DNA from: Candidatus Babelota bacterium
GTDB lineage: Bacteria > Babelota > Babeliae > Babelales > UASB340
Direction of reading: 5' to 3'
Assembly: GCA_014730005.1 (NCBI GenBank)
Contig: WJIY01000005.1
Span: forward strand, 1-42,443
DNA: 42,443 bases
Position numbers and translations under genes: made by a program. The notes under the pieces are model-generated. The model was not told the origin of the DNA and searched no databases. It saw only the letters and a program-made list of their open reading frames with translations. Of the stretch, positions 12,309 through 24,753 are shown piece after piece (position 1 is the first letter of the stretch; every line of letters begins with the position of its first letter).

Positions 12309-12383
12309 TGGTAGGCACGAGCGGGATCGAACCGCTGACCCTTGCTACGTCAAAGCAATGCTCTACCACTGAGCTACGCGCCT
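12309..12383 (-). tRNA. tRNA-Val(GAC)
   Basis: Reverse complement AGGCGCGTAGCTCAGTGGTAGAGC...TTGCT-TTGACGT-AGCAA...AGCGGTTCGATCCCGCTCGTGCCTACCA; full cloverleaf with encoded CCA. Confidence 0.93.
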
Positions 12384-15400: not shown

Positions 15401-16538
15401 ATTCTAAAGCCATTATTTTAGGTAAACCACATTGATTTAATTCTAGTTTAGGATCAACAACAATTACAGAACGTCCTGAATAATCTACTCTTTTGCCCAA
15501 GAGATTTTGTCTAAAACGTCCTTGTTTTCCTCTTAACATCTCACTAAGAGATTTTAAAGGACGTCTATTTGAGCCTCTTACCGGTTGCCCCCTTCTACCA
15601 TTATCTATTAAGGCATCAACTGATTCCTGTAACATCCTTTTTTCATTTTTTATGATTACCTCAGGTGCTCCAAGATCAATTAATCTACGCAATCTTATAT
15701 TTCTATTTAAAACTCTTCTGTATAAATCATTTAAATCTGAACTTGCAAAACGTCCACCTTCCAAAGGAACTAATGGCCTTAAATCTGGAGGCAATACTGG
15801 TAATACTTCTAAAATAGTCCATTCCGGTCGAACATTTGCATGCAACATTCCTGACAAAATTTTTAATTGCTTTGCTATTTTATGCTTAGCAGCAATTGAA
15901 GTAGTTTGTTTAAACTCTTCTTCAAGCTTACGAACCTCAAAACTTAAGTCCATCATTGAAAGTAATGTTCTAATAGCCTGTGCCCCCATATCAGCTTTAA
16001 AAATAGTATCTTCTGGATGTGCACTAATGTAATCTTCAAATTCTGGTGCCGTTAAACAAGTTTTAGCAGGATAAGGTGAATTGCCTTGATTTATAACTAT
16101 GTAACTATCAAAGTAAATAACTCGCTCCAAATCACGAACTGTCATATTCAAAATAAGACTCAAATAACTAGGAATCCCCTTTAAATACCAAATATGAGAA
16201 ACCGGAGAAACTAAATTTATATGTCCCATTCTTTCACGACGAACCTTCGATTGAATTACTTCAACACCACATTTTTCACAAGTAACACCTCGATGTTTCA
16301 TTCGCTTATATTTTCCGCAATTACATTCCCAATCTTTAACTGGGCCAAATATTCGTGCACAAAATAATCCATCTCTTTCTGGTTTTAACGTACGATAATT
16401 TATTGTCTCTATCTTTTTAACTTCACCATAAGAAAGTGAACGAACTTTTTCAGGAGAAGCAATACTAATTTTAATTGCATTAAATTTAGAAGGATTTATA
16501 TATTCTCTAAAGCGCTCAAGTATTCTATTATTCACCAA
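12411..16538 (-). CDS. rpoC: DNA-directed RNA polymerase subunit beta'
   Basis: N-terminal zinc ribbon CNCGKYKRMKHRGVTCEKCGVEV, catalytic NADFDGDQMAVH, C-terminal conserved blocks. Confidence 0.98.
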   Translation of the reverse strand: MVNNRILERFREYINPSKFNAIKISIASPEKVRSLSYGEVKKIETINYRTLKPERDGLFCARIFGPVKDWECNCGKYKRMKHRGVTCEKCGVEVIQSKVRRERMGHINLVSPVSHIWYLKGIPSYLSLILNMTVRDLERVIYFDSYIVINQGNSPYPAKTCLTAPEFEDYISAHPEDTIFKADMGAQAIRTLLSMMDLSFEVRKLEEEFKQTTSIAAKHKIAKQLKILSGMLHANVRPEWTILEVLPVLPPDLRPLVPLEGGRFASSDLNDLYRRVLNRNIRLRRLIDLGAPEVIIKNEKRMLQESVDALIDNGRRGQPVRGSNRRPLKSLSEMLRGKQGRFRQNLLGKRVDYSGRSVIVVDPKLELNQCGLPKIMALELFKPFVYVELQKRELAPNLRIAKKMVENMLPEIWEALEEVVYNMPVLLNRAPTLHKLGVQAFFPKLVEGKAIKIHPLVCAAFNADFDGDQMAVHVLLSKKARLEAERLMLSTKNLISPASGRPVATPSQDMVLGLYYLTKARKNVIGSGITFSSIQEVIFSYQHNQLHVQAPIKLRLNSGKIIETTAGRALLYSVLPEGSSFQWVNKAVKKKDLVRLIARLFRLFGQEITARALDRIKTLGFSYATLGGISLKVDDLIVPKEKSEIVSRAKKDVEKAEKLYRDGAITNGERYNKIVQIWARTTEEVSGKMINILEEQDKKAAKNADKSNVPFNPVFMMLDSGARGSKQQIRQLAAMRGLMATPSGEIMETPVIANFKEGLSVFEYFISTHGARKGLADTALKTADSGYLTRRLIDVGQDVVITKMDCNALGYVVVEDLKESGEIIEPLEERIFGRVLAEDLKDPVSGQLIAEQGELVSDDLVDKVKDSAVTKVAVRSVMTCQAKRGVCAKCYGMDLSTHQLIDVGSAVGIVAAQSIGEPGTQLTMRTFHIGGTASGVVEQNFYKSKVDGFVKYKDVEIVKDRQGNSVIVNHKSRIAIISEDGRELEEFSLEYGTRLFVEDGQKVKKGQKIAEWDFQKIILTEKKGRVKFVDLIENITYQVQYHEDTGQSTKTILERRDEKRQPCIVILDSQDNEVARYFLPTSAQLYVHDGDMVEPGDVIAKLPREEKRTKDITGGLPRVAELFEARIPKDAAFISEVNGIVKFGGLHRGQRRITITTEEGDTFEYSIPRSKHLNIEDEQKVNAGDLLTSGVPNPHDILRILGPDELQKHLVKEIQEIYRLQGVSINDKHIELIVRQMLRKVRIVDPGDTNFAIGDRVDKIHLQAVNRSMVKEGKKIAVAKSILMGITKSSLGTESFLSAASFQETTRILTEASIVGQVDYLYGLKENIVIGRLIPAGTGIPSFKVKYLGEDVSDLEKQARQEEKLEASLENISLE

Positions 16539-19500: not shown

Positions 19501-20829
19501 AATTTCCTTTAATGCATCTTCATAATTTGAAACTTTATCCTGTGCTAACGTAACAGCCAAGGTTGGTTGAAAAACATATCCAGCTGATTGCAAAATTTCA
19601 ATTGAAAGATTTCCCAAATTCGAAATCTCTTTAATTAAATCCTCCATCAGTACACTTCCCTGTTGAGCAACAACCTCCCCTGTTTTTGGATCAATAACGT
19701 CTTTTGCCAAAACTTTATTTAATAAACTACTCTTTTTAACTATTAATTTTTCAACACCCGCATCTAACAATTTATTAATAGTGTTTTTAGTAAGACGTTG
19801 GCCAATTATAAATTTTCCTTCTACTTCTTTAGGTAAAGAACCATGTTCTAATCTATAACCGATTAATGATTGATTAATCTTTCTATAAAAATTTCCCTTT
19901 TTTAATTCTATTTTTTCTGCATTATAAAACATTGGCAAAATAGAATCACGCGTATATCCTAATGCTTGCAAAAACGTCGTTACAGGAATTTTTTTCTTTT
20001 TATCTATACGAACATTTAAAACATCATTATGATCAAATTCGAAATCTAACCAAGAACCCCTTCCTGGTATTATTCTAGAAATATGGCACGGAACTCCCCT
20101 AAAATCTTTTGTCTTTTTACTTAAAGCAAAAATAACCCCCGGTGCTCTATGTAATTGACTTACAACTACACGATCAACACCATTTATAACAAAAGTTCCT
20201 TTGTTTCCTAATTTGAAATTTCCATCCTTATCTTCATAAATATCGACCATAACTGGAAGATCACAAAAAAATATTTCTTGTTCTTTAATATCACGAACAA
20301 CTTTAGTTTCTTTTTTTTCATCTAAATCCCAAGAAACAAGTTGCAATTTTACCTTTAACGGCATTGAATATGTTTTTCCGCTATAACGACATTCATCAAC
20401 AGTAATTGCATTTTTAATTAAAACTCTGGATGAACATTTTTTGCAAACTACATAATTTGCAGTATCTTTATGACAATTAGGACAAATAGAATCAGATAAC
20501 CTGCCTACACCAGTTTTTTTACAAGAAGAACAATTCCATTTATATCGATTTTCAATTCCAAAAAGACTACCACATATACAAGACCAAGTTCCAATCTCAT
20601 AGCTAACGTATTCAAGTGAATTTTTTTCATTATGCTCTATAGGAAAAGTATCCCTAAAAACTTTTTCAAGTCCCGTATTTTTGCGCTCCGATGGTAAAAA
20701 ATCTAACTGTACAAAATCATTAAATGATTTTGATTGAATTTCAATCAGATTAGGCAACGACACAACTTCTTTAATTTTCCCAAAAGTTTTCCTAAGCAAA
20801 CCCCTGCCTATTTCAACTTGCGACATCAA
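16528..20829 (-). CDS. rpoB: DNA-directed RNA polymerase subunit beta, with N-terminal cysteine-rich insertion
   Basis: [45 protein letters not shown]-type block, [57 protein letters not shown]. Stop overlaps the rpoC start by 11 bp. Confidence 0.98.
   Translation of the reverse strand: [1433 protein letters not shown]
20401..20589 (-). other. Zinc-ribbon-like 8-Cys insertion within RpoB (about residues 81-143)
   Basis: [64 protein letters not shown] lies between conserved [10 protein letters not shown] and [20 protein letters not shown]. Confidence 0.8.
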
Positions 20830-23986: not shown

Positions 23987-24063
23987 TGGCAGGTCAGGAG
24001 GGAATCGAACCCCCAACCTACGGATTTGGAGTCCGTCGCTCTGCCTAATTGAGCTACTGACCT
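23987..24063 (-). tRNA. tRNA-Trp(CCA)
   Basis: Reverse complement AGGTCAGTAGCTCAATTAGGCAGAGC...CGGA-CTCCAAA-TCCG...GGGGGTTCGATTCCCTCCTGACCTGCCA. Confidence 0.94.
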
Positions 24064-24077
24064 ACTAAACTGCCAAA

Positions 24078-24236
24078 TCATTTAGTTTCTTTATGTTCAT
24101 TGTGTATGCGACACTTAGGACAATATTTATTTATATTTAACTTAGCAAATTTCCTTTTTTTGGAAACCATTTTGCTATAGTTACGTTCCTTGCATTGTTT
24201 ACATTCAAAATGAATTATTGTTCTAGCCTTGGCCAT
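24078..24236 (-). CDS. rpmG: 50S ribosomal protein L33 (below the cutoff of the supplied ORF track)
   Basis: Own translation: MAKARTIIHFECKQCKERNYSKMVSKKRKFAKLNINKYCPKCRIHNEHKETK, with paired CxxC. Confidence 0.92.
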   Translation of the reverse strand: MAKARTIIHFECKQCKERNYSKMVSKKRKFAKLNINKYCPKCRIHNEHKETK

Positions 24237-24278
24237 GTTTTTCTATATCCTCGATTTTTTAAATATCAAAACAAGTCT

Positions 24279-24354
<76 letters not shown>

Positions 24355-24373
24355 AATTAGCCTAATTATAAAT

Positions 24374-24449
24374 TGGAGCTGGCAACTGGACTCGAACCAG
24401 CGACCTGCTGATTACAAATCAGCTGCTCTACCAACTGAGCTATGCCAGC
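24374..24449 (-). tRNA. tRNA-Thr(TGT)
   Basis: Reverse complement GCTGGCATAGCTCAGTTGGTAGAGCA-GCTGA-TTTGTAA-TCAGC...CTGGTTCGAGTCCAGTTGCCAGCTCCA. Confidence 0.94.
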
Positions 24450-24463
24450 CTTAAAAATATCAA

Positions 24464-24540
24464 TGGAGCGGGAAACGGGTCTCGAACCCGCAACCTACAG
24501 CTTGGAAGGCTGTCGCTCTAGCCAATTGAGCTATTCCCGC
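24464..24540 (-). tRNA. tRNA-Gly(TCC)
   Basis: Reverse complement GCGGGAATAGCTCAATTGGCTAGAGC...ACAGC-CTTCCAA-GCTGT...GCGGGTTCGAGACCCGTTTCCCGCTCCA. Confidence 0.94.
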
Positions 24541-24668
24541 AAATTTCAAATTTTAAAAAACTATGTTTTTGCCAGTCTACCTTTTTTCGCCAAATAATTT
24601 TTTGTGCAATTTTACTTCTTTTTTTAAGATATCTTTAGCTAATTGACATTACACAAATGACTTAAAAA

Positions 24669-24753
24669 TGGTGGGGAGAACAGGATTCGAACCTGTGAAG
24701 GCTGAGCCAACGGATTTACAGTCCGTCCCCTTTGACCGCTCGGGAATCTCCCC
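24669..24753 (-). tRNA. tRNA-Tyr(GTA)
   Basis: Reverse complement GGGGAGATTCCCGAGCGGTCAAAGGGG-ACGGA-CTGTAAA-TCCGT... long variable arm ...ACAGGTTCGAATCCTGTTCTCCCCACCA. Confidence 0.94.

Follow-up and report, generated by a model that had tools for sequence, protein, structure and literature searches.

The RNA polymerase beta subunit (RpoB) encoded in the window, the whole stretch of 42,443 nucleotides analyzed here, carries a lineage-specific insert whose proposed double metal site is unusual and probably nested. In the reading that we favor, the insert is probably an accessory ribbon-within-ribbon metal-binding module on the beta1/protrusion, likely serving as a surface platform. No bacterial machine has been studied better than RNA polymerase; even so, in a pair of phyla, of which one abounds in soil, its core beta subunit has an extra probable metal-binding module that apparently has neither a solved structure nor a published description.

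The source organism is a member of Dependentiae, and the best-matching named RpoB, at 61% across the entire protein, was that of Candidatus Dependentiae isolate SZAS-2. The rpoB gene starts with an ATG at 20826, with the Shine-Dalgarno sequence AGGAG six bases 5' of it, and belongs to a minus-strand block in standard order, secE-nusG-rplK-rplA-rplJ-rplL-rpoB-rpoC (Table 1). A tRNA cluster (Tyr-Gly-Thr-Thr-Trp, window 23987-24753) adjoins secE/nusG and leaves too little space for tuf, which is often located among such tRNAs. Since the start of the listed SecE open reading frame overlaps tRNA-Trp, the true SecE start is probably further downstream. A tRNA-Val(gac) gene (window 12309-12383) lies between rpoC and rpsO-pnp.

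Table 1. Features of the rpoB-rpoC region, in coordinates of the window
Feature	Position	Strand	Basis
rpoB, RNA polymerase beta subunit, 1432 aa	16528..20826	-	Pfam Rpb2 domains
Insert, RpoB residues 80-141	20404..20589	-	Alignment to E. coli beta and to insert-less RpoBs
Pair 1, C83-x-C85, proposed outer metal site	20572..20580	-	Kept in 19/19 inner-site-less Dependentiae genes; in Acidobacteriota lost with pair 4
Pair 2, C99-x2-C102, proposed inner metal site	20521..20532	-	Lost with pair 3, 7 independent events
Pair 3, C115-x2-C118, proposed inner metal site	20473..20484	-	Lost with pair 2
Pair 4, C128-x2-C131, proposed outer metal site	20434..20445	-	Kept and lost jointly with pair 1
RpoC zinc ribbon, comparison sequence	16269..16331	-	Next hit after RpoB for the insert profile, 18 Dependentiae genomes

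Alignment to the solved E. coli beta subunit showed that the coordinates and sequence reading given for the insert in the preliminary description were correct. The insert stands in for E. coli residues 77-80, and its flanking residues 79 and 142 correspond to E. coli G76 and D81. Domain beta-uD1 spans E. coli residues 1-152 (PMC11515920), and the alignment places the insert in the beta1/protrusion part of RpoB. Of 120 Dependentiae sequences, a set in which some genes occur more than once, 100 retain all eight cysteines, as do 88 Acidobacteriota sequences; this pattern is far above chance. The Cys-rich segment with four CxC/CxxC pairs, as originally described, is therefore real, and the conserved pairs would supply the two CxxC-type knuckles, with four cysteines per metal, of a zinc ribbon; the insert is probably a metal-binding module, as had been proposed. 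On the other hand, the histidine of the "CH" following pair 3, which had also been pointed out, was not conserved among the aligned inserts. A second, short insertion of ~13 aa (window ~20203-20241, minus strand; RpoB residues ~196-208) was observed in every aligned Dependentiae RpoB and was absent in Acidobacteriota and the other phyla aligned.

The distribution of the insert across phyla was mapped, as the preliminary description had proposed; nearly all Dependentiae and most Acidobacteriota carry it. A profile of the insert matched 89 of 101 Dependentiae genomes, including 68 of the 68 that are at least 90% complete, and 224 of 247 Acidobacteriota genomes, one of them (G327) through a Cys-less remnant. 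In the RpoB of ten Acidobacteriota genomes the insert is gone or shrunk to a remnant, and most of the remaining non-matching genomes gave no rpoB match whatever. The culturable acidobacterium Bryocella elongata (L055) is among the carriers of the eight-Cys insert. The Dependentiae and Acidobacteriota profiles aligned in hhalign over their full length with the eight cysteines in register (96.6%, E=5.2e-10), and by this comparison the two inserts are clearly homologous. The insert was not found in RpoB of the 727 genomes scanned from four neighboring phyla (148 Nitrospirota, 198 Desulfobacterota, 189 Myxococcota and 192 Bdellovibrionota). Three weak matches in Nitrospirota and Desulfobacterota (L197-L199) were dismissed because they had no RpoB match. 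Nor was the insert found in the alpha- and gammaproteobacterial rpoB loci compared or in beta chains of the PDB, where sequence searches gave only weak generic zinc ribbons. Thus, among the six phyla scanned, only Dependentiae and Acidobacteriota have the insert; it is lineage-specific with respect to the four other phyla, but it is standard in Acidobacteriota too and extends beyond one lineage.

In a tree of insert-masked RpoB, whose root is not known, Dependentiae and Acidobacteriota fell on the same side of a branch that separates them from the other phyla (SH-aLRT 86). Horizontal transfer of the insert is therefore not needed, and a single origin with later losses would be an adequate explanation, making the insert a candidate shared character joining Dependentiae and Acidobacteriota. 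Outside the insert table of Lane and Darst (2010), who reportedly named the early beta inserts and may list this one for Acidobacteria, literature searches did not turn up any account of the insert.

Clean losses of one site or the other have recurred and serve as a natural mutagenesis experiment, from which the likely ligand pairing can be read even before a structure is solved. The 20 Dependentiae exceptions to the eight-Cys pattern represent 19 distinct rpoB genes without pairs 2 and 3, and in each of them pairs 1 and 4 were complete. Pair 2 was usually lost by substitution (for example WSCSSCKK vs WIDAKAKK) and pair 3 through a short deletion further along, with GCSRL between them retained, so that a single deletion cannot explain the joint loss. 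The Dependentiae RpoB tree required six inner-site loss events, and branches with strong support made four of these unavoidable. In Acidobacteriota, L280 had lost pairs 2 and 3 and nothing else. Pairs 1 and 4, which are ~45 residues apart, were jointly lost in L172/L298/L300 (WKSRSG ... TIDEVCG) and in L228 (WESKCG ... VSSCG), in both cases with the CxxC pairs between them intact. The Acidobacteriota tree thus showed two outer-site losses, one inner-site loss and about four losses of the whole insert. Shrunken, Cys-poor insert remnants were seen in the Acidobacteriota RpoBs L173 and L179 (GNWDECGWGDEARGLVHEIGG; GDWEPAADVPGVRYHVVRDFGGQ), and these are apparently decay intermediates.

In both phyla together there were nine independent partial losses, seven dropping pairs 2 and 3 but keeping 1 and 4, and two dropping 1 and 4 but keeping 2 and 3. 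All nine respected the division 1+4 and 2+3, and none (0/9) the division 1+2 and 3+4; if the pairs were lost independently of each other, all nine would agree by chance with a probability of ~(1/3)^9 = 5e-5. Since every partial loss fits 1+4 and 2+3, we infer a nested arrangement, and the model that parsimony favors has an outer ribbon formed by C83, C85, C128 and C131 around an inner one formed by C99, C102, C115 and C118. We regard this nested anatomy as quite likely. The insert had been read before as two ribbons, one in each half (pairs 1+2 and 3+4), which is probably wrong, since the joint losses indicate the pairings 1+4 and 2+3.

The likeness of the insert to the zinc ribbon of RpoC (beta') also bears on the pairing. 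When 101 Dependentiae genomes were searched with the insert profile, the only matches besides RpoB were to the ribbon end of rpoC-sized genes, in 18 genomes (E ~5e-4 to 1e-3), and the gene position was that of rpoC where the contig was shared. The match is short, with E ~1e-3 genome-wide and a probability of 60-97% by sequence set. The observed score was above all 60 shuffles of the non-Cys columns in each phylum, for pairs 1+4 as well as for pairs 1+2 (0/60 reached it), indicating that the likeness first noticed in the preliminary description is real beyond the Cys pattern. Its assignment to the first half of the insert was not supported, since in both phyla pairs 1+4 scored higher than pairs 1+2 (28.7 vs 22.0 in Dependentiae; 44.4 vs 38.8 in Acidobacteriota). 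When pair 1 was joined to pair 4 at RpoC spacing, a spacing picked to fit RpoC, the match to the Dependentiae RpoC set rose from 15% to 76% for Dependentiae and from 93% to 95% for Acidobacteriota. By these scores, the outer ribbon is the part that most resembles the beta' ribbon, and descent of the insert from the latter is possible.

Two tandem zinc ribbons (1+2 and 3+4), the first being a copy of the beta' ribbon, look natural from sequence alone. In Acidobacteriota the first half aligned gaplessly to RpoC over 28 columns (94.6%; 12 columns and 60.6% for the Dependentiae insert), its C-x-C-x12-C-x2-C spacing is that of RpoC, and pairs 3+4 resemble DZR and, at the classical spacing, hit Pfam models of single ribbons (Zn_Ribbon_1, E=6e-5). 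However, in a tandem arrangement all nine partial losses would have broken both sites and left four orphan cysteines, and in Dependentiae the 1+2 match to RpoC is weaker than the 1+4 match. We therefore consider the tandem arrangement unlikely.

Structure prediction was at least consistent with the nested arrangement. Modeled on its own with AlphaFold2 (10 sequences), the insert had a pLDDT of 49, and this model was consequently not taken into a fold search. In a model of RpoB residues 1-640, residues 81-90 and 121-140 had pLDDT values of 75-89 and the middle, residues 101-120, ~50; only the ends of the insert are thus well placed, and such a model would be compatible with a nested insert. Foldseek of the 640-residue model returned RNA polymerase beta chains only and was uninformative on the insert.

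With the nested arrangement, the module would most likely hold two Zn2+; both zinc and the exact ligand pairing are what we infer. The outer beta'-like ribbon (CxC pair 1 and CxxC pair 4) would close the module onto the beta strand and the inner CxxC/CxxC ribbon (2+3) would stabilize its tip, giving a rigid surface platform that may modulate transcription via upstream DNA or a protrusion-adjacent transcription factor. The whole insert was lost about four times in Acidobacteriota, several of which live without it; this surface module of the beta1/protrusion is therefore accessory.

The Dependentiae insert had a mean net charge of +7.3 (+6.6 in variants without the inner site), and NRYxW, SRL, RY and SRV were conserved, also after inner-site loss; basic charge and retained motifs fit a nucleic-acid contact in this phylum. 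The Acidobacteriota insert is nearly neutral (mean net charge +0.9), so that a protein partner fits better there. Charge and conservation thus support the view that the insert is a contact surface, possibly with a different partner in each phylum. The insert could instead merely decorate the structure, as a stable surface loop with bound metal that regulates little, persists by inertia and is freely lost: the inner site was lost 7 times, the outer twice and the whole insert ~4 times, and its total loss in several Acidobacteriota is compatible with a near-neutral decoration. Decoration is rather unlikely in our judgment, since all good-quality Dependentiae genomes, small as they are, contain the insert and the non-Cys motifs are kept even in inner-site-less variants. 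Contact with DNA or a factor, as opposed to decoration, is put forward only tentatively.

The beta protrusion is the anchor of the Mfd RID and lies beside upstream duplex DNA (PMC7864632), and the beta' ribbon touches nascent RNA structures such as putRNA (PMC9378689). Docking of a protrusion-binding factor such as CarD on the insert was considered because the related Mfd RID binds the protrusion (PMC7864632) and the genome (94.6% complete) encodes one CarD_TRCF_RID protein, a CarD family member of 192 aa (L310 1468-2046). Since this protein was the only match to the family, no full-length Mfd was seen in the genome. The RID family, however, also matched in control genomes of phyla without the insert. 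Moreover, the site on E. coli beta touched by the RIDs of Mfd and CarD is presumably near residues 108-120 rather than at 76-80. Docking of this kind is improbable. It is also doubtful that a beta'-type ribbon was duplicated, moved into the beta protrusion before the split of Dependentiae and Acidobacteriota and interrupted by a second ribbon, and that it serves as a second nucleic-acid-contacting ribbon tuning promoter opening or pausing from upstream.

The insert can be compared with three known systems. It shares with the beta' ribbon the W-x-C-x-C-G ... C-x-x-C-x-x-V layout, but it lies in RpoB, has eight cysteines, and its inner CxxC/CxxC unit splits the best RpoC-like pairing. Like the Pfam families DZR and Zn_ribbon_6, it has eight cysteines in four pairs. 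DZR matched 8/8 Acidobacteriota inserts (best E=3e-7), and the best Pfam match of the Dependentiae inserts was Zn_ribbon_6, below cut-off (E=9e-4; 19.6 bits for the window insert vs 25). Unlike members of these families, the window insert falls under every curated cut-off and its pairing is apparently nested. Finally, the beta-i series of Lane and Darst and the BEAN domains are likewise sporadic, phylum-level inserts in beta surface loops (PMC11515920). The BEAN inserts occupy the lobe or domain 3, at residues 240-338 in E. coli and 286-370 and 511-601 in other species (PMC11515920), whereas the insert described here is Cys-rich and lies in beta1 at E. coli 77-80, outside the sites of BEAN types 2-4.
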